NCBI GenBank assembly: GCA_001778905.1
Contig: MFIQ01000013.1
Location: forward strand, 1 to 38,347
Length of the DNA: 38,347 nucleotides
Reading direction: 5' to 3'
From: Candidatus Giovannonibacteria bacterium RIFCSPLOWO2_12_FULL_44_15
GTDB taxonomy: Bacteria; Patescibacteriota; Minisyncoccia; JACPKW01; UBA11713
This document shows, piece by piece, positions 4,037-26,349 of this stretch. The first letter of the stretch is position 1, and every line of letters begins with the position of its first letter. The position numbers and the translations under genes are program-made. The notes under the pieces were generated by a model. It was not told where the DNA came from. It made no database searches and worked only from the letters and a program-made list of their open reading frames with translations.

Positions 4037-4243
4037 ATGTCTAAAAGCGTGTCTAGTGCATATCTGAAGATAAAAGATGCCGCGATTTTTCTGGGGGTCA
4101 GTCCAGAAACATTGAGATCTTGGGAGAAAAACAAGAAGCTTTTGTGTACGCGCGACCCTAAGAATAGATACAGGCTTTATAAAATTGGAATACTTCAAAA
4201 ATTCAGGGAAAGTCGAAAGAAAAAATATCACAAAAGCGGATAG
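4037..4243 (+). CDS. Small MerR/excisionase-like helix-turn-helix protein
   Basis: 68 aa, YLKIKDAAIFLGVSPETLRSWEKNKKLLCTRDPKNRYRLYK = MerR-type HTH pattern. Confidence 0.75.
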   Translation: MSKSVSSAYLKIKDAAIFLGVSPETLRSWEKNKKLLCTRDPKNRYRLYKIGILQKFRESRKKKYHKSG

Positions 4244-4652: not shown

Positions 4653-4690
4653 AAATCAAAAATCGCTCGTAATGGAGCGATTTTTGATTT
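4653..4690. terminator. Bidirectional Rho-independent-like terminator between rnpB and ftsZ
   Basis: aaatcaaaaatcgctc..gagcgatttttgattt inverted repeat with T-rich arms on either strand. Confidence 0.8.
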
Positions 4691-5802
4691 TACAGTTTTT
4701 TTGAGCGCCTCAAGAAAGCCGGGATCGAATCCCATTCGGAACTCTCTGGTTCTTTATCTTGAATATTTTCTTCGCTTTTTGTTCCTGTTTTATCGGAGCG
4801 GATGGATTTAGAGCTATCAGTGAATAGAGACGGGCTCCGGCCCAATCCGACGGGAAAGCCCGAGGCGATAACGGTAACTTTTACCTGCCCGGATTTTAAT
4901 CTTTCGTCGCGAACTGCTCCGAAAATTATCTTCGCTTCCCGATCCACATTTTCTGTAATAATTTTTGCGGCCTCCTGCACCTCCCACATCGAAAGATCAT
5001 CTTTGCCGGAGATCGTAAATAAAACTCCCTTGGCTCCTTCCGCGGAAACTTCGAGTAGAGGCGAATGGACAGCCATGCGCGCCGCCTCCTGCGCCCTTGA
5101 TTTCCCTTGGGCAAGGCCTATCCCGATTATTGCCGAGCCGGAATTAGATAAAATAGTTCTGACATCCGCAAAGTCCACATTGACTATGCCCGGCGTTATT
5201 ATCAAGTCCGCGATACCTTCAACCGCCTGCCTCAAAACTTCATCGCACATCGCGAATGCCGCCAAGAAAGAAGTATCCCTCTCAACAATGCTTAAAAGAC
5301 GGTCGTTGGGGATAACTATCATAGCGTCAACGGCTTTCCTGAGCCGCACCAAACCTTCCTCCGCAATATTTTTTCTGACGTCCCCTTCAAATGAAAACGG
5401 CTTCGTGACAATTGCAACAGTAAGTATTCCTAAATTTTTCGCAATCTCCGCGACAGTTGGAGCCGCGCCGGTTCCCGTTCCCCCTCCGAATCCGCAAGTT
5501 ACAAAAATAAGATCGGCCCCACGTACCATTTCTTCGATTTCTCTTTTTGATTCCTCCGCAGCCATCCGGCCAAGATCGGGATTCATCCCCGCGCCGAGCC
5601 CTCTCGTTACTTCTTTCCCAATATGGAATTTTTTTGACGAGAGCGAATTATGCAAATCCTGCGCGTCAGTATTTATGGAAATAAAATCAACGCCCTTAAC
5701 TTTAGACCGAATCATGTGGTCCACCGCGTTCTGTCCCGACCCTCCGACTCCGATGACTTTTAGGCGGGCGGATGTCTCAAATTCTGGCTTAACCTGGGGC
5801 AT
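4690..5802 (-). CDS. ftsZ: Cell division protein FtsZ
   Basis: GGxGxNAVDHM, GGGTGTGAAPTVAEIAK tubulin signature, C-terminal conserved peptide SIPAFLRRSKK. Confidence 0.98.
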   Translation of the reverse strand: MPQVKPEFETSARLKVIGVGGSGQNAVDHMIRSKVKGVDFISINTDAQDLHNSLSSKKFHIGKEVTRGLGAGMNPDLGRMAAEESKREIEEMVRGADLIFVTCGFGGGTGTGAAPTVAEIAKNLGILTVAIVTKPFSFEGDVRKNIAEEGLVRLRKAVDAMIVIPNDRLLSIVERDTSFLAAFAMCDEVLRQAVEGIADLIITPGIVNVDFADVRTILSNSGSAIIGIGLAQGKSRAQEAARMAVHSPLLEVSAEGAKGVLFTISGKDDLSMWEVQEAAKIITENVDREAKIIFGAVRDERLKSGQVKVTVIASGFPVGLGRSPSLFTDSSKSIRSDKTGTKSEENIQDKEPESSEWDSIPAFLRRSKKL

Positions 5803-5884
5803 AGTTATACCTAAGACTATACTCGAATAATTTGAGGGTCAAGCCCTAGATAAATAAAGGTTTATGGTAAAATTAGGCTATTTT

Positions 5885-6415
5885 TTACTTAATCAAATGT
5901 TCCTGCCCACGATTTGGACTTGTTGTGGTTCTCAAGAACCATGTAATCGGTTTCCCAATTTCTTTGGATTTTTTCTGGACCTCTTCTATGTCCGGAAAGC
6001 CTTCATAATCTAAAAACCCTAGATTTATTTCATTCTGGTTATCATCTGGAACATTATAGTAATTATATAGTCGATTAAGCATAGTCGCGTGCGGCAATCT
6101 GCCATCGATATACCAAGCACTCTTTTTTTCGCCCTCGTTTCTGGTTATAACGCAAAAGGCTCTATGATTCCTTTGTCTTGACACAATTTTATTATCGACA
6201 ATAAAAATATGGTTTTCCTTTCTGCTTGCTTCTTCGTCTTCTTCTGTCGTAAATGGAACTTCATAATACTTGGCTATTTCCTCTCTGGTCTCGTCGTACT
6301 CTGGCTCCCCATTTTTAAAAACTGCCTCTTCTCTATAATTTTCAAAATGCCCCCTTAGATGCGGGGAGTGCGTATTAAAAGTTTCTGGGGCGTTCTCGGG
6401 AATTCTTTCAAGCAT
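5885..6415 (-). CDS. Hypothetical protein
   Basis: 176-aa ORF in the ftsA-ftsZ island; no family recognised. Confidence 0.6.
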   Translation of the reverse strand: MLERIPENAPETFNTHSPHLRGHFENYREEAVFKNGEPEYDETREEIAKYYEVPFTTEEDEEASRKENHIFIVDNKIVSRQRNHRAFCVITRNEGEKKSAWYIDGRLPHATMLNRLYNYYNVPDDNQNEINLGFLDYEGFPDIEEVQKKSKEIGKPITWFLRTTTSPNRGQEHLIK

Positions 6416-6430
6416 AAATTAAACTTAGTA

Positions 6431-6730
6431 TTACTGTACCAAAACCGCCTTTAATCGCGAAATCTCCTCCTCAACCGCGCGTTCGATTTTGAGGGCGAGA
6501 TTGGGAACGCCTGCGGAAATTTCTGCAACGACCTCCTCCAAATCCGCGCCTTCTTCATGAAGCGCTTTCTGGATTTTCTGGGCGTCGTCGTCTGAAATAT
6601 TCGCGACCAAAACTCCAATCAAAACTTCCTCAAGCCTTTTATTGACTTTCGCCAATATTTCTTCCCGCTCTTCTTCGGGAAAGTTTTCTAATCCCAGTGC
6701 TTTTGATAATTCGTTTTTGCTACGCGACAT
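6431..6730 (-). CDS. Hypothetical small acidic helical protein
   Basis: 99-aa ORF overlapping the upstream gene; charged helical composition. Confidence 0.65.
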   Translation of the reverse strand: MSRSKNELSKALGLENFPEEEREEILAKVNKRLEEVLIGVLVANISDDDAQKIQKALHEEGADLEEVVAEISAGVPNLALKIERAVEEEISRLKAVLVQ

Positions 6731-9386
6731 TTTGTTTTGAATTATCTTCTTTATCTTTACTTAACTTTTCGCCAAGACCTCTAACCATATCAGCTCTATA
6801 ATCGCCAGCTCTCATTTTCTCTTCCCGTTCGACTCTCAAAATCGTTTCCTCCTCTGACTCCCCAGCATCTATCCTAGGATATCTCAAATCCTCCGGGGGT
6901 TCTCGTTTGGGTAGCCTATATTCCAGGAGTTGTGTCTCGGGGTTTAATTTTCCAATTACTTCTTCATTTTTCTCCTCAGATTTTCTTGGAGTTTCGCTTA
7001 TAGCTGGTTCCCTAACTCCAAACATTTGCTTAACATATCTATCTACAACGGCGTTGAGATTTTTCCTGGATGATATACTGTCTTTATCATTTAAAAAATC
7101 CTTAAGTGCTTCCGGTAAATCTAGTTTTATTGGCGCTACTTTGGCGTTAAGTTCCTGATCCCAAAGCCAAGCTTTTCTCCTTTGCGGAAGTCCGTTGAAC
7201 CAGCCGCTCATTTCTTTATAACTCTCGAATTTTTCATATCCGTCAGGAGTTTTAACGACATATTTAATATCCCCCTCTTTGACATCAAACCTCTTCTCCG
7301 CCAAATATTTATAAATCGGGTCCTCTGGAAATCTTTTCTCGACTCTCTCTTTTTTTGGCTTAGGTTCTGCTTTTGGCTCTGCCCTCTTCTCCGGTTTGGA
7401 TTCTTCAAATTCTGAATCTGGATCTTCAACATACTCGTAATTATCCAGTCCAATTGGCTTTACGTGCGTTCGGTTATCTTTTTCCGCTTCTGTAGGTTCA
7501 ACAATGACGGCTTCTTCTTTCAAGTCAATATATTCCATTTCTTTCTTTTTTATTTTTCCTTTGATATATTTTTCGACGGCATGACCCTCTCCGGCAAGAT
7601 AAGCCGCGCCAACAGTTGAAAATATATCGTCGAAGAAACTATTTTTGCCCTTCTCAGCTGCTTTCAGCGCGGCTTTATCTTTTATAAAATCGTAACTCCT
7701 TTGAAAAGCATCTGAGCCTGTCGGTTCTGTAAAGTCATTAGCCGAGATAGCCGCTGTCGCTTTTTCTTCCGCTTCTTTCAAAATAGTTTCTGAAAAATTA
7801 TTGCTTGGATTAAGCTCTGCTTTATAGTCTAAAACTCTCGCCCATTCGTCTGGTGAAACATTAGGAACAAAATTTTTTGCTAAATCCGTTTTCCCAAGTT
7901 CGCTCAATCCATCTGCCTTCCCCAACGCCGATAATATATCTGTGCCATGCAAGCTAAATGTGCCGCCAGGATGAATCTCTTTCGCAGAAATTAAATTTTT
8001 AAGATGGTCCTCCGCGTAGATAAGTTGGCTTTTGTCGTACGAAATATCAACCCCGGTTTTTCTGACTTCGGTAATTAAATCGTGGATCAAATTTCTGGCA
8101 ATATTTGTTGCCCCGTCTCCTGTCTTTGCCGTCATTTTAAACTCCTGCATATCCAGATTCGCCAATCCAGCGGCAACGGATTTTTCATAAGTCTTCGAAA
8201 ACACATCCGTTGCTTCTCCTTGAATTTGCTCGAACGCTTCTTTTCCTATCGCTTTTTTTGCATCCTTAAGCGCTGCTCCCGCTTCTTTTGGTCCATGAAA
8301 ATACTCTCCAAGATAATTTCCGACTATTCCTCCGAGAGCCCCACCAAGTCCTCCCATAATTGCTCCTTTTAGTGCACCTTTCTTCACTTTCTGCCATCGC
8401 TCCGAATTTAGCCCCATCTCTTTCAATATCTCTGCGTAAACTTTGTTTTTTCCTTCAGCCATGCCAACTTCCTCTTCGATTTTTATTAGATCAAAATACT
8501 TATCAAGTTTTTCTCTAAGATTAATATTTTTTTCTTTTCCAATGGCGTCCGCTTTGTTATAAAGTTCTTCCTTTCTCGCAAATAACTCCCGGTGCTTTTT
8601 TGTTTCGCCTCTGTATGCTTTAATTCCTTCCCAAGTTCCCCCGGCAATGGCACCGGAAGCGGCGCCGACAAAAACTCCCCCGGCAAGTCCAGTCGCCCAT
8701 TTTACGGAAGCCCGCGTCACCGCGCCGACAGCCATGCCGCCCAAGAAATTCTTAGTTTTCGCCCCGAAAAGTTTCTTCTTGTCGAATTTTGATAGTATTT
8801 CCTTCGGATTTAAATTGATTCCCCTAAACTTTTCTTTATTAGCTTCAAATACCTGCCCAAGAACGCTTCCCAAAATTTCCGCGGCTTTCTTTGCACCAAC
8901 CGGTTTTGCGTCTGGTGAAAATGCATCCGAGATTTTTTCTTTTTTTCCAAAAATTTTTTCCCGATATTTAGAAAGGTCGATTATTTTTTCACCTTCTTTC
9001 GAAATCTCCGCGCTTACTCCCGTCCCTCTTTCATTCAATTTAAAGGGGCCGATTTTATACTTTTTATCGCGCGTGGCAAATTCGCTATATGCGAAAATCT
9101 TCTCCCTATCCGGATCCGTAAAATTTTTGTCCAAAACAGAGAGTTCGAGTTTTCCGCTTTGCGCGGCTTCTTCTAGTTGCCCAGATATAATTCTCTCAGT
9201 ATCTTTCTTTATAGCATCCGCATTTTTCGGATCAGGATTTTCGGCTTTGATTCTATCCCAATATTTTCCAGACCAAACCTCCTCCGGAGATTTGGGTTTT
9301 TCTGCTGTTTTTTCAGGCCCGGAAACTATTTGGGCATCCTCCGATTTGGACGTGTCAAATTTTCTCGCTGCGTTTTCCATCGCCAT
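6720..9386 (-). CDS. Large hypothetical protein with glycine-zipper segments
   Basis: 888 aa; glycine/alanine-rich stretches (TGLAGGVFVGAASGAIAGGTWEG; GAIMGGLGGALGGIVGNYLGEYF) flanked by long charged regions. Confidence 0.8.
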   Translation of the reverse strand: MAMENAARKFDTSKSEDAQIVSGPEKTAEKPKSPEEVWSGKYWDRIKAENPDPKNADAIKKDTERIISGQLEEAAQSGKLELSVLDKNFTDPDREKIFAYSEFATRDKKYKIGPFKLNERGTGVSAEISKEGEKIIDLSKYREKIFGKKEKISDAFSPDAKPVGAKKAAEILGSVLGQVFEANKEKFRGINLNPKEILSKFDKKKLFGAKTKNFLGGMAVGAVTRASVKWATGLAGGVFVGAASGAIAGGTWEGIKAYRGETKKHRELFARKEELYNKADAIGKEKNINLREKLDKYFDLIKIEEEVGMAEGKNKVYAEILKEMGLNSERWQKVKKGALKGAIMGGLGGALGGIVGNYLGEYFHGPKEAGAALKDAKKAIGKEAFEQIQGEATDVFSKTYEKSVAAGLANLDMQEFKMTAKTGDGATNIARNLIHDLITEVRKTGVDISYDKSQLIYAEDHLKNLISAKEIHPGGTFSLHGTDILSALGKADGLSELGKTDLAKNFVPNVSPDEWARVLDYKAELNPSNNFSETILKEAEEKATAAISANDFTEPTGSDAFQRSYDFIKDKAALKAAEKGKNSFFDDIFSTVGAAYLAGEGHAVEKYIKGKIKKKEMEYIDLKEEAVIVEPTEAEKDNRTHVKPIGLDNYEYVEDPDSEFEESKPEKRAEPKAEPKPKKERVEKRFPEDPIYKYLAEKRFDVKEGDIKYVVKTPDGYEKFESYKEMSGWFNGLPQRRKAWLWDQELNAKVAPIKLDLPEALKDFLNDKDSISSRKNLNAVVDRYVKQMFGVREPAISETPRKSEEKNEEVIGKLNPETQLLEYRLPKREPPEDLRYPRIDAGESEEETILRVEREEKMRAGDYRADMVRGLGEKLSKDKEDNSKQNVA

Positions 9387-9396
9387 ACCCTAATTA

Positions 9397-9427
9397 AAAC
9401 ACGGATTTTAAGTTAAGTCAGCTAAAT
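9397..9427. repeat. Degenerate copy A of island palindromic repeat
   Basis: aaacacggattttaagttaagtcagc; first 14 nt identical to copy B, plus shared tcagc. Confidence 0.45.
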
Positions 9428-9794
9428 CTGAGTTTACTCCATCCTTTAACGCATCCAGCTCGGCGGCCGGAACTGACAAAAGTGAACTGAAAAATTCAAT
9501 CTTCTCTTCTTTTTCGAGCGCGGAATTGGAAAGAAGCATGGCTAACTCCGCCCGCTTCCCCTCAAAAACATAAGCTCTGAATCCTTGGGCGCGCAAATTC
9601 TCAATAACCGCCCAAAAATAACTTGGGTCATTCGGCAAAACAGACTCTTGAACCAAAAATTCTCCATCGTGACGCAAAATTACTGGCGAATCTTTAATAT
9701 ATGTTTTCATCAGATAATTTCGAGATAAATCATCATTTTTTGCAAATGACCCGAGATATTCGCCGTCTTTTTTAAAAATGAAAGCTGTTTCCAT
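9408..9794 (-). CDS. Hypothetical protein
   Basis: 128-aa ORF packed directly 3' of the zincin gene (1-nt gap). Confidence 0.65.
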   Translation of the reverse strand: METAFIFKKDGEYLGSFAKNDDLSRNYLMKTYIKDSPVILRHDGEFLVQESVLPNDPSYFWAVIENLRAQGFRAYVFEGKRAELAMLLSNSALEKEEKIEFFSSLLSVPAAELDALKDGVNSDLADLT

Positions 9795-9795
9795 A

Positions 9796-10806
9796 TTAAT
9801 ATTCTCCCTTAACGATACGAAGCGGGGGGGTTTTTTCTCTTGCTGGTTTTTTCAATTCGGGGACATCCTGTGCAGTTTCGCGATCCAAGTAGTCGTCGAC
9901 CAATTCGCGATCTTTTATTGGTAAATTCCGCAAATCAACTGTTCGAGCTTTTACGATCTCTGCCCAATATTCCGCCGTTTTTATAAAAAGTTCCAATCTT
10001 TTATCTTTGTTGCTTATTGCTTCGACATACCCTGAACGATATCGATCCTCGGAATTAACCCTATTCAAAGTTCGGTACATCAAATCAACTCGTTCGGGCA
10101 TAGGCCGCCGCGGATTTACCCAGTCGTTCAAATGCGCCATTTCGTGCGTTAACACAGAGACTGCCCCGTACCCAGTCTGATTATAAGAGTTCTTAAAATA
10201 AGATATGTTGCCATTTTTCCTGTCAGCTTGGGCAGCAACCTCTCTCCCCTTGAGGCCGTAATGCTTAGGAGCTTCCTTGATCTCATTTATAAATCTGATT
10301 TGTTCTATACTCTCAACCCACGAATGGGGCATGGAATCCAGTACCATATTAATGGGCCGGGTATCAATTCCGATTCTGCGAGCGTCTTCCTTGGGCACGT
10401 TCGGATGCATAACAACTTTATCGCGAAATTTTTCTCGCGCCTTTTCGTCTTCGCCCGCTTTACCAAAGTATCGATCAAGATAATTCCTTCCTAATTTCTT
10501 TTCCAAAAATTTTTCTTGCTTTGCCATCTTAAAAAGTTTTTTTCTCTCTTTGGCATCCATCTCTCCCTCCTTCGCGGCTTTATCCGAGTTTTCTATATAT
10601 TCCGAAATCTTTGGTCCGCCTTTCAATAATTCCCGAACATCTTTCTTAGAGAATGCAATCAAGTCCGGATTCCCCAATGTTCCGGATATAATCGCAGGCG
10701 CCAAAAAAGCCGTAATGGCCTTCGCAAACCTTCCTCGAATCGACGAAACCGCTTTATCTTTCCTTTCTTTTTTCGGATCGCCACTTTCGAAAGAAAATTT
10801 CTCCAT
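9796..10806 (-). CDS. Predicted zinc metalloprotease-like protein (HExxH zincin)
   Basis: 336 aa; VLTHEMAHLNDW (HExxH) with a downstream acidic helix TAEYWAEIVKA; an apolar segment near the N-terminus. Confidence 0.65.
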   Translation of the reverse strand: MEKFSFESGDPKKERKDKAVSSIRGRFAKAITAFLAPAIISGTLGNPDLIAFSKKDVRELLKGGPKISEYIENSDKAAKEGEMDAKERKKLFKMAKQEKFLEKKLGRNYLDRYFGKAGEDEKAREKFRDKVVMHPNVPKEDARRIGIDTRPINMVLDSMPHSWVESIEQIRFINEIKEAPKHYGLKGREVAAQADRKNGNISYFKNSYNQTGYGAVSVLTHEMAHLNDWVNPRRPMPERVDLMYRTLNRVNSEDRYRSGYVEAISNKDKRLELFIKTAEYWAEIVKARTVDLRNLPIKDRELVDDYLDRETAQDVPELKKPAREKTPPLRIVKGEY

Positions 10807-10818
10807 ATACCTAAATTA

Positions 10819-10851
10819 AAACACGGATTTTACTCCGTGTCAGCGAAAAAC
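10819..10851. repeat. Island palindromic repeat copy B
   Basis: aaacacggattttactccgtgtcagcgaaaaac; internal inverted repeat ACACGGA/TCCGTGT; 30/33 identical to copy C. Confidence 0.85.
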
Positions 10852-10855
10852 TATT

Positions 10856-11107
10856 TTAGTATGCCTTGCTGCGATGCATTATTCGATAAATTTTTACCTC
10901 TTTTCTCGCGTCAGAAATTTCATAAAGAATACGCCAATCTCCGACTCTCAATCTCCAGGCATTCTTTGAACCTTCAAGCTTTTTCGTTCCCTGTGGTCTA
11001 GGGCGACTTTGCAAAATTAAAATTCGCTCGATTATTCTTTTATATATAACTCGATCAAGTGCATCTAAATCCTTCCGAGCCCTCTCTTCAAGGAGAACTT
11101 TATACAC
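10856..11107 (-). CDS. RelE/ParE-family toxin
   Basis: 83 aa; MYKVLLEERARKDLDALD...GTKKLEGSKNAWRLRVGDWRILYEI...IMHRSKAY typical of RelE. Confidence 0.9.
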   Translation of the reverse strand: MYKVLLEERARKDLDALDRVIYKRIIERILILQSRPRPQGTKKLEGSKNAWRLRVGDWRILYEISDARKEVKIYRIMHRSKAY

Positions 11108-11294
11108 GTTCCTTTATATATTCTTTGAGTTCTTTAAAATTAGTAGTGCTTTTTTTAATTTTTTTCAATTCCAAAAGATCTTCTTTATTCTCCACAAGTT
11201 CTAATAATTTCCGATATTTCTCAATATCAAGCACGACGGCCTTCGGTCTGCCATTTTCTACAATTATTTGAGGTTTTCCTAAAGTAGTAGACAT
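11100..11294 (-). CDS. Phd/YefM-like antitoxin
   Basis: MSTTLGKPQIIVENGRPKAVVLDIEKYRKLLELVENKEDLLEL; overlaps toxin start. ATG at 11294 preferred over the TTG-extended 11330 start because of the upstream promoter. Confidence 0.8.
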   Translation of the reverse strand: MSTTLGKPQIIVENGRPKAVVLDIEKYRKLLELVENKEDLLELKKIKKSTTNFKELKEYIKERV

Positions 11295-11300
11295 ATTATT

Positions 11301-11330
11301 ATCATAGACAAAAAATCCACCCAAAGTCAA
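11301..11330 (-). promoter_or_regulatory. Candidate TA-module promoter (leaderless geometry)
   Basis: Minus strand TTGACT (11325-11330), 18-nt spacer, TATGAT (11301-11306), then 6 nt to ATG. Confidence 0.6.
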
Positions 11331-11361
11331 ACACGGATTTCATTCCGTGTAAGCGAAAAAC
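11329..11361. repeat. Island palindromic repeat copy C
   Basis: aaacacggatttcattccgtgtaagcgaaaaac; 30/33 identity to copy B. Confidence 0.85.
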
Positions 11362-11389
11362 CGTGATAAACTTTTACTTTTCCGTGAGA

Positions 11390-11836
11390 TTATCCTTGTA
11401 TTTGTTGTTCAATCTTTGCTTTTTCCTCTTCTAATTTAAAGATTCCAAATTTTGTATCAGCTATTCTTCTTTCTAGCGAAGCAATCTGTTGTTTATTTGC
11501 TTGCTTACTTGTATCTACAGCCCTTGCCCATTCTTCATATTCACCCTTCCTATTTGGATTTGTGGAATCAATGGGAGATATAGAACCATTAAGCTTATAT
11601 TGTTGATCTAAAAGTTTTCTCATTTCCGAACGATTCGGATCATCAGGATTTGTTATTGGCTGATTGCCCGGAATTCCTTCCATTGATTTTAAAGCATTTT
11701 TTAAATCGTCCAGCTTTTGATTAGTTTCTTGCAATCTTTGCTCTAAACCACGCTTATCCTCTTTCGATTCGTTTTTAGTCTCTTTGACCTCGGGTTTTAT
11801 TGATTTATCCTCCGGCGTTGGCATTTTTTCACTCAT
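11390..11836 (-). CDS. Hypothetical coiled-coil protein
   Basis: 148-aa ORF with heptad-like charged helices; own candidate promoter upstream. Confidence 0.65.
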   Translation of the reverse strand: MSEKMPTPEDKSIKPEVKETKNESKEDKRGLEQRLQETNQKLDDLKNALKSMEGIPGNQPITNPDDPNRSEMRKLLDQQYKLNGSISPIDSTNPNRKGEYEEWARAVDTSKQANKQQIASLERRIADTKFGIFKLEEEKAKIEQQIQG

Positions 11837-11842
11837 GCCTCC

Positions 11843-11870
11843 ATCTTACTGCCCCCCCCCAACGCGTCAA
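11843..11870 (-). promoter_or_regulatory. Candidate promoter with poly-G spacer
   Basis: Minus strand TTGACG (11865-11870), 16-nt spacer containing G9 (C9 at 11852-11860), TAAGAT (11843-11848), 6 nt to ATG. Confidence 0.5.
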
Positions 11871-11875
11871 GTGGA

Positions 11876-14299
11876 TTACGAACCAGCATGCCTCCTTCTA
11901 ATCTCTTCCTCCACTTCCTCCCTTGGGCGGGCGAATTTGGAGCGGGATAATTGCTTAATATATTCCGCCATCTCGGGATTGCCTTTCTCTGGCGCAATAG
12001 TTTTGATGTTAAACGGCTTTGAGGTTTGCCCATCAACGAGAAGTTTTAAATACGCGTTTCGGTTGTCGATATTCAATAAATCCGGAGCGGTGAAGGTCGG
12101 CGCGAATTGCTTCTCCATATATTCTCCGTCGTCCGAGCCAATCCTAAACGAGCAAATGGAGCCGACGTTTCCGAAAACTGCTTTTTGAATATCTTCTTCG
12201 AGCTGTCCTATGAATTGATGCGTGATTATCAAATCTAATTTATATTTCCTCGCCTCCGAAAGAATCGTCGCGATTGATTTCGTCGTCACATTTTGAAACT
12301 CGTCTATATATAGATAGAAGTCCTGCCGCAGTGCCTCGTCTTTAATATCGACGCGAGATAAAGCCGCGAGCAGAATTTTTCCGACCATAATCAACCCCAA
12401 AAGGCTAGAGTTAAGCTCACCCAATCTCCCTTTTGAAAGGTTTAAGAGCAAAATCTTTTTATTATCCATCGCTTCGCGGACGTTGAAAGAAGATTTCTCC
12501 TGCGCGATTATCGGGCGCATGATATCGTTCGCGAGAAATGTATCGAATTTCGAGACAACGTACGGAACCATATTTTGGAGGCTGGCCTCGCCTCCCGCTT
12601 TCTCCGCGATCTGCCGCCAAAACATATCGACGACAATATTTTTCGATTTGGATAATTTGTAATCCCTAAAAGATTTATCCGCCAATATTTTCTCGATCTC
12701 CAAAAGCGTATTCCCGGATTCAGGATCTTCCATGACAAGCAAAGCCGCGTTCCTAAAATACTGCTCGAACATCGGCCCGCCAGCAGTGGCCATATTAAAA
12801 AGTTTATTAAAAATGTCCAGAAGCTCGTTTACAATCAAAGTCTTATGCTCCGGGAATTTCGGATCATATTCGAGCATGTTGAGCCCCATCGGATACGCGG
12901 TGTCCCCTGGATCAAAATAAATTACGTCTTCCGCCCGCTCACGGGGGACAAGCTCAAGAATTTTCTCAATTAGCTCCCCATGCGGATCGATTACAGCGAC
13001 TCCCTCGCCTGCTCTGATATCCTGCACAATCATATTTTGGAGCAAGACGGATTTACCTGTTCCAGTCTGCCCAATCGCATAAAAGTGCCGACGCCTGTCG
13101 TCTTTTTTAATCCGGACATCCTTTTCTTCTCCCCGAAAAGCGCTTTTGCCAATCAAAATTCCGTCCTTGGGCAGATTTACGGGCGGGGTTGCTTCGCGGG
13201 ATTTCAGCATCCGGACTTGCGGTGCCGCCTTTTTGGAATATGGGAAATGGTAAACCGAGGAAATTTCTTCGACGTTCAATGGAATTGCCGCCCCGGAATC
13301 AAAAAACCTAAATGAAAATTTTTCCGCTAAATCGCGCAGGCTTGTCCCAAAAAAGTTCTGAATTTTGAATGAATTCGCCTCCGGGCTCGAGAATTGGTAG
13401 AAACTTGCTTCAAATTCCTTAATAATCCGATCAACTTCTTGGGCCGTCTCGGCGGAGACTATCAGGCGAATATTTGCATAATAAATAGTTTTCGACGATT
13501 TCTCTTCGAGTAGTTTGACAAGTTCTTCATCATAGACAATTGGCTTATTTTTTTCCTCCGGGCGCAAATGCTTGGGAGTTTTGAAAGTATCAATTGTCGT
13601 CTCAGCAATATTCCTTTCCCCCAGCGCCTCTTTTCGAGGAGTTCCTTTCTTCAAGCGCTCGATGATTTTATGGATTGGCTCCGCGAGTTTTTCGCCTCCC
13701 GAGCGTAAAACAATCTGCAGGGCCGCCCCTTCCCCATATTCCTTAATTTTCGAAAATGCCGAGGTTATGGTCTCAACCGGATCGGACTCAATTTTTTGGT
13801 AAGTTTTTATCGGCAGGAAATTATTTTTCTCGAGAGTAAGCGTCGCTCCGCGGGAAACGCCAGACGGATGGAAAATATTGTAATCTTGGACTTTCTCGAC
13901 TTTCGCTTCCGGGAATGCTCCATGCAACTGGGATTGCAGAAGATTTTCGAATTTCCTCGAGAAGGCGATATAGAAAAAAATCTCCGAACCGTCATTATGC
14001 GCTGCAAGCTCCAACGCAAAAGACGGCGCGCCGCCAAAAAGCCTGAAAAAACTTTCGTCCTTCATTCCGGAAAGGCCAATCAGAAATTTTTCCATCTGGG
14101 CGATAAAATTTTTTCTAGCCTCGTTGGGATTTTCTTTTTCATCCGGCCTTGATTCCGGTATGGATACCAAAAAAAGCTGGAGGGATAAACTCGAGGATAC
14201 GTTATGAATCTTTAAGCGCCTTAAATAAAAATAGAAAACTATCAAAACCGGCAAGGCCCCGAAAAATAAAACTGCAAGAAAAAATTCCCAGAAACTCAT
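11876..14299 (-). CDS. TraD/VirB4-like type IV secretion/conjugation ATPase (membrane-anchored)
   Basis: 807 aa; N-terminal TM; Walker A GQTGTGKSVLLQNMIVQD; VIDPHGELIEKIL; Walker B-like FYLYIDEFQNV; typical of the TraG/TraD/DUF87 superfamily. Confidence 0.9.
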   Translation of the reverse strand: MSFWEFFLAVLFFGALPVLIVFYFYLRRLKIHNVSSSLSLQLFLVSIPESRPDEKENPNEARKNFIAQMEKFLIGLSGMKDESFFRLFGGAPSFALELAAHNDGSEIFFYIAFSRKFENLLQSQLHGAFPEAKVEKVQDYNIFHPSGVSRGATLTLEKNNFLPIKTYQKIESDPVETITSAFSKIKEYGEGAALQIVLRSGGEKLAEPIHKIIERLKKGTPRKEALGERNIAETTIDTFKTPKHLRPEEKNKPIVYDEELVKLLEEKSSKTIYYANIRLIVSAETAQEVDRIIKEFEASFYQFSSPEANSFKIQNFFGTSLRDLAEKFSFRFFDSGAAIPLNVEEISSVYHFPYSKKAAPQVRMLKSREATPPVNLPKDGILIGKSAFRGEEKDVRIKKDDRRRHFYAIGQTGTGKSVLLQNMIVQDIRAGEGVAVIDPHGELIEKILELVPRERAEDVIYFDPGDTAYPMGLNMLEYDPKFPEHKTLIVNELLDIFNKLFNMATAGGPMFEQYFRNAALLVMEDPESGNTLLEIEKILADKSFRDYKLSKSKNIVVDMFWRQIAEKAGGEASLQNMVPYVVSKFDTFLANDIMRPIIAQEKSSFNVREAMDNKKILLLNLSKGRLGELNSSLLGLIMVGKILLAALSRVDIKDEALRQDFYLYIDEFQNVTTKSIATILSEARKYKLDLIITHQFIGQLEEDIQKAVFGNVGSICSFRIGSDDGEYMEKQFAPTFTAPDLLNIDNRNAYLKLLVDGQTSKPFNIKTIAPEKGNPEMAEYIKQLSRSKFARPREEVEEEIRRRHAGS

Positions 14300-14688
14300 T
14301 TCAATTTTCGCGCATCCTGAAGTTTTTGATAATAACGATCCGCTAAAGTATCGTGGAACTCGTCTATGATGTGCGGATTTTTGAAAGATTCCGCGACTTT
14401 CAAGGCCGAGGCGAGATTTTTTGCGAGGGCGATATTTACGAGCTCATTGATTATCTCGTGGTGTTTTTTCTCCTCAAGCTCTCCCGCTTTTTTCTTGGCA
14501 TCATCGTCCGAAAGGCTTGGCGTTGGAGCTGGGGGCGGTGTCGGCGCTTGCGGGGCTTCTTTTATAATGTCTTTGACAACCTCGCGTTCTTCTTTCGCTT
14601 CCATTCCCCCTCCCGCAAGCTCGCGCTTTTTTGCCTCAAGCTGCCCCTCGAGCCATTTTATATCTTCATGTATCCCTTCCTGCGCCAT
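14296..14688 (-). CDS. Hypothetical coiled-coil/Pro-rich protein translationally coupled to the ATPase
   Basis: 130 aa; overlaps ATPase start by 4 nt (ATGA); PQAPTPPPAPTPS linker. Confidence 0.7.
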   Translation of the reverse strand: MAQEGIHEDIKWLEGQLEAKKRELAGGGMEAKEEREVVKDIIKEAPQAPTPPPAPTPSLSDDDAKKKAGELEEKKHHEIINELVNIALAKNLASALKVAESFKNPHIIDEFHDTLADRYYQKLQDARKLK

Positions 14689-14715
14689 GCATTTATTTTA
14701 GCATGGCGAGAAATC

Positions 14716-14748
14716 TTTCCGAAGTTCGCCTTCGGAAAACTTCGGAAA
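14716..14748. terminator. Intergenic hairpin (tttccgaagtt/aacttcggaaa)
   Basis: 11-bp inverted repeat with 11-nt loop; only a weak T tract. Confidence 0.4.
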
Positions 14749-14771
14749 ATCATCTTTTTCAAAATATTTTA

Positions 14772-15767
14772 TCACCGCAATTCTTGCCTCTTGAGTCGCG
14801 CCTCATCTTCAGCTTCTTCAATGGTTTTTTTCTCGTTAGAATTTAATAGATCGCCTTCGTTCACTTCGTTTCTATTTCCGGTCGTCCCACTAATTTTAAC
14901 TTCCATGCTTGTTATGTATAGCAGTTTTTCTTTTCCGGGATTTTCTACGGCGGCAGTATTAATATCCCACCCGAGTTTCAAATGCATCTTGCTACCTTTT
15001 TCAATATACCTTTTCACTTCGTGCGAGTGTGTCATGGTATATTCAATTTTTGAAGCTAGAAGTTTTTTGGCTAACTCTCCATTTTTTGCTTCCCCAAATT
15101 TAGAATCCTCGGTTGCATGCTGAACTGTTTTTTCGATAAATTTATCTACAGCTTTCTCTCGAGCTTCTTTTAGCTTTTCTTCATCTGCTTCTCCTTCCAA
15201 AGATTCTTCAACATAGTCATCCAAAATTTTATCATTCACCTCAACACTATTCGAATCTTCTTCTCCTTCTTTCATTTCCCTCTCTGGAACTTCCAAATAT
15301 TGCCGCTCGAGCTTCACAATGTATACACTTTCCTTCACTAACCTTTTCTCGGCATCTTCAAGAGCTCTTTGGCGTGCAGTTATTTCATTATTGGGGGAAA
15401 ACGCCTTAGATTCACGCAACTCTCTCAACTCTTTAAGAGAGTTTTCTACTTCTTCTCTAAGTTTTTCATTTCTTTCAGTAAGATCTGCAAGTTTGTTGCG
15501 CTCTTCATTTAAGCTTGCTAACTCTTTATCTTTTGGGCTTTCTGGTTTTTCTTCGACAGTTTCTCCTCTTTCAATCTTTCTTACATCTTCAAATGTTCCA
15601 GGAGCGTCAAGCGTATCATGTACGGATTCATTTTTACTTGCTTTATTGTTCTGTTCCTCCAAAAGCTCAGCGTAACGAGGCCTTCCTTGCTCGTCGAAAA
15701 CATCCTGTGCATCTCCCTGTTCCTTTTGGATTTTTGCTACCTCTTCTGACGACAATGGTTTTTCCAT
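14772..15767 (-). CDS. Hypothetical coiled-coil protein
   Basis: 331 aa, highly charged, no TM; within the ftsA-ftsZ island. Confidence 0.7.
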   Translation of the reverse strand: MEKPLSSEEVAKIQKEQGDAQDVFDEQGRPRYAELLEEQNNKASKNESVHDTLDAPGTFEDVRKIERGETVEEKPESPKDKELASLNEERNKLADLTERNEKLREEVENSLKELRELRESKAFSPNNEITARQRALEDAEKRLVKESVYIVKLERQYLEVPEREMKEGEEDSNSVEVNDKILDDYVEESLEGEADEEKLKEAREKAVDKFIEKTVQHATEDSKFGEAKNGELAKKLLASKIEYTMTHSHEVKRYIEKGSKMHLKLGWDINTAAVENPGKEKLLYITSMEVKISGTTGNRNEVNEGDLLNSNEKKTIEEAEDEARLKRQELR

Positions 15768-15775
15768 ACTCGTAT

Positions 15776-16045
15776 TTAAACTTCCGTATTAAGCTTTTCT
15801 CTAATAATCTTTTTCATGCGGTCGTGTTCCGCCTTCATAGTTACCCAATCTAAAGTCTGCCTCAAAAGTTCGGGAAATTCGTCTCTGCTTGGTTTTTTAC
15901 TTAGTTCTTCGCTTACCCTATTAAGATCCCCGCTTACCCCGTTAAGCTTATCTGTAATATTATCGAGCTTTTTCTCTACGTTCACATGGTCGTCCGCCGT
16001 GGCGAATACTTTCTGCATTTTTTGGATATCCTTGTCTGTGATCAT
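15776..16045 (-). CDS. Hypothetical small protein
   Basis: 89 aa; VEKKLDNITDKLNGVSGDLNRVSEELSKKPSRDEFPELL helical repeat. Confidence 0.65.
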   Translation of the reverse strand: MITDKDIQKMQKVFATADDHVNVEKKLDNITDKLNGVSGDLNRVSEELSKKPSRDEFPELLRQTLDWVTMKAEHDRMKKIIREKLNTEV

Positions 16046-16057
16046 TGATATATTATA

Positions 16058-17224
16058 CTACGGGATCAGCGATCTTAGCCACGCGGAGATTTTTTGCCTA
16101 AGTATAGACGGGGATTTTATGGATTTTGCCGATGCGGTTTCTTTATCCAAAACCAAGAGCGCGGCGCCCACGGCCGTCGCCCAAACCGGGTCCTGAATGC
16201 GGTGCCCGGTATCCAAGTCTGCAAACTTCCCCTTGCCCGAAGGCAGGCGCAAAATATTTTTCGAAAATTCGTCAATCCCGACTATCTTCGCGGACCCCCC
16301 CGCCAAAACAACTCCCCCGGGCAGGAGCCCCTGCCTCCCGATTTTTTTCAAATGGTTTTCAACAAGCTCGAACATATCTTCCAATCTTGCCTCGACTATA
16401 TTTTGAAATTTATTTTTCGATTTTGAATTTTCTTCGGGCAGCCTCATAGTTGTTTTTATCTCCTCGGCGCTGTCCAGGCCTACCTGAAATCCAAGCGCGA
16501 TATCGTTCGTAATATGGGCACCGCCAAAAGGAAATACCGCAATCGAAAAGGGAAGATTTTCTTCCATAACCGCGAGATCAGTCGTCTCCGCTCCAATATC
16601 AAGCGCCAAAGCTCCGGCCTCGCGCTGTCGCGGGGTAAGGATTGCGCGTGCGGAGGCAAGCGGGGCTGGGATAACGTCGTTTATAGCAACTCCGACTTCC
16701 TCGACAACGGATACCATTTCGCGCAAAGGCTTTAATAAAGAAGTGACAAATAAAACTTCCGCTTCCAGATTTTCTCCCTTCATCCCCAAAGGGTCCCGCA
16801 TTATCATCTCCGAATCTACGGAATAGTTAAGGCCGAACGTGTCCAGAATTTCTCTATTTTGAAGATCCCTCGAAGAGGGCCGAGCCTGCGCCATAACGCG
16901 TTCAACATCGTATGTTCCAACTTCCCCGGAGGCCTGCGCGACAGCAACTCGCGCCCTTACTTTGGATGCGCCCAAAGCCGGAGTCCCGAAAGTTAAATAT
17001 GCTTCTTTGAACGGGATCCCGGAAAAACGCTCCACTTCCGAAACCGCCATTCTAATTTTTTTAGCGAGAAGATCGGGGTTGCTAACCATTCCTCTGCGAA
17101 CTCCCTCGGCCGGAACTGCGGCTGCGCCCAAAATATGTATCCCTGTATCCGATTTTCTCTCCGCCGCCAAAGCTTTAACGCTCTTTGAGCCTATATCCAA
17201 AATATGCACTATATTCCTCGGCAT
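16058..17224 (-). CDS. ftsA: Cell division protein FtsA
   Basis: ILDIGSKSVKALAAER, ALALDIGAETTDLAVMEE, GGVVLAGGSAKIVGIDEF; C-terminal amphipathic helix ILRQKISAWLRSLIP. Confidence 0.95.
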   Translation of the reverse strand: MPRNIVHILDIGSKSVKALAAERKSDTGIHILGAAAVPAEGVRRGMVSNPDLLAKKIRMAVSEVERFSGIPFKEAYLTFGTPALGASKVRARVAVAQASGEVGTYDVERVMAQARPSSRDLQNREILDTFGLNYSVDSEMIMRDPLGMKGENLEAEVLFVTSLLKPLREMVSVVEEVGVAINDVIPAPLASARAILTPRQREAGALALDIGAETTDLAVMEENLPFSIAVFPFGGAHITNDIALGFQVGLDSAEEIKTTMRLPEENSKSKNKFQNIVEARLEDMFELVENHLKKIGRQGLLPGGVVLAGGSAKIVGIDEFSKNILRLPSGKGKFADLDTGHRIQDPVWATAVGAALLVLDKETASAKSIKSPSILRQKISAWLRSLIP

Positions 17225-22014: not shown

Positions 22015-22179
22015 ATGACTGCCGTAAAAGAAAAAGCGATACTCGAGGAATTGAAACAATTGAAAACCAAAATGCAACTTTTGGGTTCTTTGCGTCGTTT
22101 CAAAACACTATCACAAAAAGGAAGAGCATTCGCAAAGGCAAAAAAAATTAAGCCTTCCGATGTTCTTAAAAATGATTAG
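22015..22179 (+). CDS. Putative antitoxin of PIN-domain TA module
   Basis: 54-aa ORF MTAVKEKAILEELKQLKTKMQLLGSLRRFKTLSQKGRAFAKAKKIKPSDVLKND overlapping the PIN ORF by 8 nt (not in the supplied track; read from sequence). Confidence 0.75.
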   Translation: MTAVKEKAILEELKQLKTKMQLLGSLRRFKTLSQKGRAFAKAKKIKPSDVLKND

Positions 22180-22570
22180 GGCAGTTCTTGATACTAACGT
22201 TTTTATCTCAGCTTTATTTTGGACTGGTTCTCCTCACAATGTTTTAGAGAAAACACTTGAAGGCGGATTCATCTTAGTCATCTCCGGCGCAATTTTGGAA
22301 GAAATCGAAGAAAGATTATTAAATAAATTTAAATTTCCGATTGCGGATGTCATGTCTTTTTTGGAAATTATCGTTCTGAATTCACACATTGCCAAACCGA
22401 ATATCAAATTAGAAGCAGTATCGCAAGACCCAAATGACAATAAAATTATCGAATGCGCGGTCAGTGGCAACGCAGATTACATTGTGACTGGCGACAAAGA
22501 TATTCTCGAATTGAAAGCATTTCGAGAAATAAAAATCCTAACGCCAAATCAATTTTTAAAGATTTTATAA
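22172..22570 (+). CDS. PIN-domain toxin (VapC-like/COG1569-like)
   Basis: MIRAVLDTNVFISALFW...DPNDNKIIECAVSGNADYIVTGDKDIL acidic PIN motifs; start refined to 22172. Confidence 0.9.
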   Translation: MIRAVLDTNVFISALFWTGSPHNVLEKTLEGGFILVISGAILEEIEERLLNKFKFPIADVMSFLEIIVLNSHIAKPNIKLEAVSQDPNDNKIIECAVSGNADYIVTGDKDILELKAFREIKILTPNQFLKIL

Positions 22571-25840: not shown

Positions 25841-26086
25841 TTATTTTGGATGCGAGCGTATGGAGTGCAGAATATATGTATCGCCTTCGATAGTAAAATA
25901 AAAGCGCCAATCTTGAGTGATGCGCGCTTGCCATAAATCCTGCCTTTCATCATATTTCTTGGCTCGCAATGAAGGATGACGAAGATTTTGCAGGAGCAGT
26001 TCTAACTTTTTATCAAATGCCTTCTGGATAACTACTGGGGCTTTCGCATAAACTCCGTCGAATTGATGCGTTGTGCGAGCTTTCAC
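25841..26086 (-). CDS. RelE-like mRNA interferase toxin
   Basis: 81 aa; LRHPSLRAKKYDERQDLWQARITQDWRFYFTIEGDTYILHSIRSHPK. Confidence 0.8.
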   Translation of the reverse strand: MKARTTHQFDGVYAKAPVVIQKAFDKKLELLLQNLRHPSLRAKKYDERQDLWQARITQDWRFYFTIEGDTYILHSIRSHPK

Positions 26087-26349
26087 TTTGACTTTTTCAA
26101 TTTCCTTGCTTCACGATGGAGATGACGAATGAGGTCGCGCGCAGAAGAAAAAGCTGGAGAAACTTTTCCTTCGCGATATTGCCGGAGTGAGATTTCAATA
26201 TCGCGGTCAACGAGGCTTTGGGGCGTAAGGGTAATTTTCTTTCCTTCGTTCTTAACTTCGAGCAGATCGCCTATTTCCAAGCCGGCCTCGGCGCGAAGCC
26301 TAGCGGGAAGCGTTACCTGATATTTACCTTTTATTTTGACTAATGACAT
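26083..26349 (-). CDS. SpoVT/AbrB-type antitoxin
   Basis: VKIKGKYQVTLPARLRAEAGLEIGDLLEVKNEGKKITL; overlaps toxin start by 4 nt. Confidence 0.9.
   Translation of the reverse strand: MSLVKIKGKYQVTLPARLRAEAGLEIGDLLEVKNEGKKITLTPQSLVDRDIEISLRQYREGKVSPAFSSARDLIRHLHREARKLKKSK

Follow-up and report, generated by a model that had tools for sequence, protein, structure and literature searches.

A probable relocated, relaxase-less coupling-ATPase module of Patescibacteria between ftsA and ftsZ in a lineage of Giovannonibacteria

The window analysed here, a stretch of 38,347 nucleotides from Candidatus Giovannonibacteria bacterium RIFCSPLOWO2_12_FULL_44_15 (contig MFIQ01000013.1), carries an insert between ftsA and ftsZ that is probably a relocated, relaxase-less coupling-ATPase module of Patescibacteria with a hotspot of cassette accretion. 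Its core consists of a 130-aa partner protein, an 807-aa ATPase (ATPase-A), an 888-aa glycine-zipper protein and a 99-aa protein, and this core is part of a class-wide Patescibacteria operon which is not tied to division. The zincin, serine-protease and toxin-antitoxin genes are exchangeable cargo. More tentatively, the module may represent a second translocation machine besides the dnaA-linked type IV secretion system (T4SS), a machine without a relaxase that is composed of a VirB4/VirD4-hybrid ATPase, its near-obligatory adaptor and a large scaffold in the membrane, in which the 3' end of the ATPase gene serves as an attachment site that collects toxin-antitoxin cassettes by recombination. 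Little has been described of either the gene set of this motor or its gene-collecting end, and no published account of the locus was found under Giovannonibacteria or ftsA/ftsZ.

The separation of ftsA and ftsZ

On the minus strand of the window, ftsA (16058-17224; Pfam FtsA 2e-22, SHS2) and ftsZ (4690-5802; Pfam Tubulin 6e-48, FtsZ_C) form the left and right borders of a gap of 10,255 bp, which holds twelve open reading frames of good coding score on the same strand, encoding from the ftsA side proteins of 89, 331, 130, 807, 148, 76, 83, 336, 128, 888, 99 and 176 aa. The initial annotation had recognised this separation by same-strand genes, which recurs in three further family assemblies, and had named a TraD-type ATPase with an overlapping partner, an HExxH protein, glycine zippers and a toxin-antitoxin pair, all of which were confirmed by Pfam matches and motifs.

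The genome of the window (G000; 745 kb, 32 contigs, 100% complete) is, like the others compared, a metagenome assembly, and genes beyond the window were predicted with a simple purpose-made caller. A chimeric contig is unlikely because four separate assemblies share the gene order. ftsA was located in G000 and in up to 54 other genomes of the class; a search of 30 genomes for ftsZ succeeded in 29. The comparison of related genomes that had been proposed as a check showed both genes to be adjacent (gap below about 0.8 kb) in 24 of these 30 genomes of the class and the insert to be confined to the window's family, where it is found in four of seven genomes (G000, G001, G004 and G006). Its size is 7.6 kb in G004 and 10.1 kb in G006, and in G001 it was judged from a contig that begins within the ATPase gene and extends beyond ftsZ. 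G002 and G003 are without the insert, their ftsA-ftsZ gaps being 94 bp and 52 bp, and in G005 the contig breaks behind ftsA and ftsZ is missing from the assembly. Outside the family, an unrelated insert of 2.3 kb is present in G036, and ftsA and ftsZ lie apart in G007. The gene directly after ftsA in G005 (L043 1-1257) belongs to a zinc-ribbon family (cluster c12) otherwise found near other VirD4-like paralogues.

The insertion point lies between the ftsA stop codon and the promoter-like sequence of ftsZ itself, which has been left intact. In the window this sequence is TTGACC-17-TAGTCT (5810-5850, minus strand); a sequence comparison of six genomes, some with the insert and some lacking it, showed that all retain it in the form TTGAC-17-TA[GC][TG]CT. 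No repeat was seen at the outer borders, and the GC content gives no clear border of the island. Directly downstream of ftsZ we observed a strong, terminator-like hairpin with a 16-bp stem (4653-4690), and between ftsZ and a 766-aa TPR gene a conserved 68-aa reading frame on the opposite strand (4037-4243), which is kept in G001, G003, G004 and G006.

The usual site of the module and its relocation

The partner and the ATPase are conserved class-wide, with the big protein and the 99-aa protein alongside in many genomes. Orthologues of ATPase-A at 41-55% identity occur in most of the class, the closest named relatives belonging to Candidatus Giovannonibacteria. The ATPase-A gene is usually preceded by serS, an FtsQ-type POTRA gene and two dolichyl-phosphate-mannosyltransferase genes and followed by gtrA-dnaX. 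This context was found on one side or both (mannosyltransferase, FtsQ-type gene or serS upstream, or gtrA or dnaX downstream) in 42 of 93 ATPase-A loci, including all four loci of more distant Giovannonibacteria. This old site is closed in every one of the seven family genomes, the mannosyltransferase and gtrA genes adjoining with nothing between them, and the module has therefore left it.

Three states are present in the family today, namely the insert between ftsA and ftsZ, a location upstream of dnaG-rpoD in G003, where homologues of the 89-, 130-, 807-, 888- and 99-aa proteins stand together, and the empty ftsA-ftsZ junction of G002. In a concatenated tree G002 is nested within the insert-bearing clade (G000, G001, G006, G004) with support of 96-100, and neither ATPase-A nor an 888 homologue was found in this genome, which is about 91% complete; its state reflects either a later loss of the insert or repeated moves. 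The identities of the ATPase to that of G000 (95, 79, 78 and 74% in G001, G004, G006 and G003) parallel those of FtsZ (95, 81, 86 and 75%), and inheritance has therefore been mostly vertical. The 89-aa helical protein (15776-16045, minus strand) has a 74% identical homologue adjoining the module at the dnaG-rpoD site of G003. The 331-aa charged coiled-coil protein (14772-15767) and the 176-aa orphan (5885-6415), both on the minus strand, belong to the variable part, and no homologue of either was found in the other loci fetched.

The initial annotation had considered a lineage-specific secretion or surface apparatus tied to division, in which the zincin and the 888-aa protein would act as effectors or belong to the structure. 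This reading is improbable to us, even though the ATPase is T4SS-derived, the usual site lies two mannosyltransferase genes from the FtsQ-type POTRA gene, two other VirD4-like paralogues adjoin a rodA/ftsW-like gene, as judged by sequence, and the 89-aa gene starts only 12 bp after ftsA. However, ftsA and ftsZ have stayed together in most of the class as well as in G002 and G003, ftsZ has retained its own promoter, and the zincin is patchy and elsewhere located away from ATPase-A. Furthermore, FtsK is encoded in all 20 genomes tested, and ATPase-A was therefore rejected as an FtsK substitute. With the insert restricted to this family and the usual site elsewhere, the tie to the division locus was not upheld, and the position of the module between ftsA and ftsZ looks incidental.

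The cargo zone and its signatures

The cargo zone between the ATPase and 888-aa genes, again on the minus strand, starts with a 148-aa coiled-coil orphan (11390-11836), to which a 111-aa protein directly 3' of ATPase-A in G041 is related. It continues with a Phd/YefM-type antitoxin (11100-11330, probable start near 11294; PF02604, 3e-7) and a ParE-type toxin (10856-11107; PF05016, 3e-11), so that both domains of a type II toxin-antitoxin system are found in one operon. These are followed by a 336-aa predicted membrane-anchored or exported gluzincin (9796-10806) and its 128-aa partner (9408-9794), a pair kept in G000, G004, G006 and G058. The gluzincin motifs (HEMAH at 221, EYWAE at 279) are conserved in G000, G004 and G006, and the protein, which has no family match, is a putative protease. 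It was found in eight of 286 class genomes as a patchy unit with the 128-aa gene, and in three loci checked outside the family the two genes do not adjoin ATPase-A, a distribution that does not bear out the proposed role of the zincin as an effector.

The content of the zone differs between genomes: Phd/ParE is followed by the zincin pair in G000, HicAB and a ParE pair accompany it in G004, which is without an 888 homologue, and a trypsin-like protease and a ParE pair in G006, while G001 carries a DUF433/DUF5615 pair, a PIN toxin pair and a trypsin-like protease, and G003 another RelE-like pair. The cargo proteases have a common layout of charged N-terminus, one hydrophobic segment and protease domain. 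Outside the island, at 25841-26349 and 22015-22570 of the window, two further gene pairs resembling toxin-antitoxin systems (RelE-like with AbrB-like; PIN-like) were noticed by eye.

A leader repeat of about 40 bp (family D1) with the hairpin ACACGGA-6-TCCGTGT is located 10-45 bp before cassette starts. In the window it precedes the toxin-antitoxin cassette (11331-11350) and, with a distance of 14 bp, the zincin start codon (10821-10840), and a degenerate third copy (9387-9429; 72% copy of D1) stands directly before the 888-aa gene, all three on the minus strand. Further copies are found at 1501, 2289 and 3052 in G001 and at 13309, before the 888 homologue, in G003, and a variant occurs in G006. 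The exact hairpin leader was seen in no fetched locus beyond the module loci, with 0 expected in shuffles.

In addition, copies of the final 51-66 nt of the ATPase gene were found behind toxin-antitoxin cassettes in G001 (90%) and G004 (82% and 91%), spaced in steps of 1239-1269 bp. The ATPase 3' end is duplicated also in distant Patescibacteria, in L126 (after 4031) behind an AbiE-like and in L134 (12337-13312) behind an MNT/HEPN-like gene pair, both recognised by eye, and the duplications in these two loci, G001 and G004 are 51-100 nt long. A downstream copy of the 3' end was detected for 4 of 75 ATPase-A genes versus 2 of 660 other long genes of the same loci, a comparison which is post hoc and includes partly interdependent loci. 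The island's own ATPase-A shows no detectable 3'-end duplication, and no integrase was seen in the cassette zone.

Could the island then be a conjugative or mobilisable element integrated between ftsA and ftsZ? The whole module occupies different positions in closely related genomes and is missing from the nested G002, the plasmid relatives of its ATPase adjoin a relaxase gene, and toxin-antitoxin genes and duplicated target 3' ends are present. We nevertheless regard such an element as unlikely, as there is no integrase or transposase among the Pfam and NCBIfam hits of the island, in agreement with the initial annotation, and no relaxase hit either. Replic_Relax, the sole relaxase family searched for, was found in none of 20 class genomes, the outer borders show no repeat, and ATPase identity tracks that of FtsZ, pointing to mostly vertical inheritance with a common site class-wide. 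The initial alternatives of a surface apparatus and an integrated accessory module are each correct in part, the island being composed of a conserved core and exchangeable cargo.

The ATPase

ATPase-A (11876-14299, minus strand) is composed of an N-terminal membrane helix (residues 6-22 in G000), a VirB4-type N-domain and a VirD4/TraD-type motor. The motor matches TrwB_AAD_bind (5e-8), T4SS-DNA_transf (4e-6), SXT_TraD (2e-12) and DUF87 and has conserved Walker A and B motifs (GQTGTGKS, LYIDEFQ); thus, both the RecA motor and the N-terminal membrane anchor of a T4SS coupling protein (VirD4/TraD) are found. The N-terminal 387 residues were modelled with AF2 from 58 sequences (pLDDT 87.6, pTM 0.84), and all 13 Foldseek matches to the PDB at E<=1e-3 were to TrwK/VirB4 of R388. 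No VirB4-type Pfam match exceeded the cut-off, and no VirB3, VirB6 or VirB8 neighbours were recognised.

Full-length relatives covering both domains (26% identity, E 1e-66) are encoded on plasmids of Streptomycetaceae and Bacillus, directly upstream of a 'replication-relaxation' (Replic_Relax) relaxase gene and near PrgI, TcpD/TcpE and VirB4-type genes. PHROG 5156 (824 aa, function unknown) also matches ATPase-A over near full length (E 6e-76). A phage origin was considered and rejected, since next to this one near-full-length PHROG there were only partial phage matches, by tblastn.

It is very unlikely that ATPase-A serves in DNA repair or defence as an ATPase of the HerA type and that the cluster represents a defence island. 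Weak hits to PADLOC mads_8 and to HerA motors were obtained, and a toxin-antitoxin pair and proteases lie close by, but the hits span the motor only, a VirB4-type N-domain with an N-terminal membrane helix is present instead of a HAS-barrel, no nurA was among the neighbourhood Pfam hits, and the gene is found nearly throughout the class, accompanied by a fixed partner. The N-domain fold in combination with the TraD/VirD4-like motor argues against HerA membership, and together with the full-length relatives on conjugative plasmids it identifies the ATPase as T4SS-derived and not as the generic HerA-like helicase that the initial annotation had allowed for.

The 130-aa partner

The gene of the 130-aa partner or adaptor (14296-14688, minus strand) overlaps that of the ATPase by 4 bp (ATGA). 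In 90 of 96 loci it is linked to ATPase-A, either within two genes upstream (71) or fused to the ATPase N-terminus (19); one of the other six loci lies at a contig edge and five have neither an adjacent nor a fused partner. The suggestion of a coupled, co-conserved partner is thereby well supported. The fusions were exposed when an iterative partner profile drifted into the ATPase. A partner profile also matches uninterrupted reading frames of 915-995 aa in genomes independent of each other and occurs outside the class, and in G048 the partner domain takes the place of the ATPase membrane helix. Natural fusion is the strongest evidence that both proteins may be physical partners.

Drift and rearrangement of unlinked neighbours, a very improbable account of the island as a whole, may apply to the 331-, 176- and 148-aa orphans, which like the cargo vary in every genome, but is contradicted for the core, where partner and ATPase are so widely linked and the partner-ATPase and 888-99 pairs move jointly between sites (G003 versus G000).

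The 888-aa and 99-aa proteins

The 888-aa protein (6720-9386, minus strand), with homologues in G001, G003 and G006, comprises a soluble N-domain, two glycine-zipper segments, a predicted b-a-a-b domain at about 415-480 and a C-terminal domain. The 99-aa helical protein (6431-6730, minus strand) has class-wide homologues near partner and ATPase genes, and in 33 loci or records its homologue is preceded by a protein of 475-1479 aa; 21 of these big proteins cluster together by similarity, and the six records from the family of the window make up a second group. The 888-aa family profile shows a weak link to the class-wide big proteins (hhalign, 84% over 52 columns) and no match to single sequences of them. 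The linking region contains a GD...PG motif and was modelled by AF2 as a LysM-like b-a-a-b structure with a mean pLDDT of 84. This region of the 888-aa protein had no PDB sequence hit and no Foldseek hit, and a marginal match to LysM (E 0.02) was obtained for only one class member; wall binding is therefore put forward as a hypothesis only.

Other T4SS genes of the genome

A separate T4SS locus adjoins dnaA (contig C12, 12500-32000; L193) and encodes PrgI, a VirB4-like ATPase (P-loop_TraG, 3e-24), a T4SS pilin and large membrane proteins that match no Pfam family. ATPase-A is thus not linked to a T4SS, virB4, prgI and this pilin being on another contig. The pilin-like genes at 35.3-36.8 kb of the window are indeed four T4SS_pilin genes (PF18895), but pilins lie near ATPase-A in only two of about 100 loci, and the suggested link between them found no support.

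A T4SS locus adjoining dnaA is described for the phylum in PMC12102498, which also counts 5,713 VirD4 homologues in 2,918 Patescibacteria genomes, only 148 of them near virB4, and considers exaptation. Two further VirD4-like paralogues are present in G000, L036 (contig C5) and L037 (contig C8). At L037 an N-domain like that of ATPase-A and the motor are encoded by separate genes beside a rodA/ftsW-like gene, an arrangement that recurs in other class genomes.

A model for the module

We propose that in one lineage of Giovannonibacteria, which are ultra-small bacteria, the module moved from between the mannosyltransferase genes and gtrA-dnaX to the point between the ftsA stop codon and the ftsZ promoter. 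The membrane-anchored ATPase-A would act as a hexameric translocation or coupling ATPase, to which the 130-aa partner may hand substrate or which it may dock, and the 888-aa membrane protein and the 99-aa protein might constitute an envelope scaffold. As no relaxase was recognised, the module was probably co-opted from monoderm conjugation and may move protein or DNA, either via the separate T4SS or alone. Toxin-antitoxin, protease and orphan cassettes would enter at the ATPase 3' end by recombination, sometimes duplicating this end, and the accreted cassettes would be bounded by the repeated hairpin leader.

Thousands of VirD4-like ATPases of Patescibacteria are listed in PMC12102498 as coupling proteins far from virB4 and without a known role. 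For one of them, the fixed partner, the natural fusions, the VirB4-type N-domain and the linked envelope proteins provide a testable parts list. The relocation and the cassette zone also show how, in a genome of about 0.75 Mb, a conserved operon can be shifted, even into ftsA-ftsZ, and decorated while the ftsZ promoter is kept.

Comparison with known systems

Stacked small toxin-antitoxin cassettes and a duplicated 3' end of the target gene are known from integron-like and 3'-end-targeting integrative elements. The cassette zone of the module differs from these in that no integrase was found and that its repeat is a hairpin leader with a 7-bp stem and not an attC site.

With the plasmid ATPases of Streptomycetaceae and Bacillus annotated as DUF87 or 'type IV secretory system conjugative DNA transfer' proteins, ATPase-A shares full-length homology over both domains; these, however, are linked to a Replic_Relax-type relaxase, PrgI/TcpD/TcpE and VirB4-type genes, and ATPase-A to none of them. 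The VirD4-type coupling proteins of Patescibacteria (PMC12102498) likewise have a TraD/TrwB/VirD4 motor and are encoded away from virB4 with no relaxase nearby. In contrast to the plain VirD4 layout, ATPase-A possesses a VirB4-type N-domain, a near-obligatory partner and the linked big and 99-aa proteins, and no mention of the partner, big and 99-aa neighbours was found in the consulted parts of that paper.

Finally, ATPase-A shares the fold of its N-domain with VirB4/TrwK of R388 (Foldseek probability 1.00, E 4e-7), although the identity is about 10%, the TM-score about 0.4 and the motor nearer to VirD4/TraD. Apart from ATPase-A with its TrwK-like N-domain, the genome of the window has a separate VirB4-like gene by dnaA.
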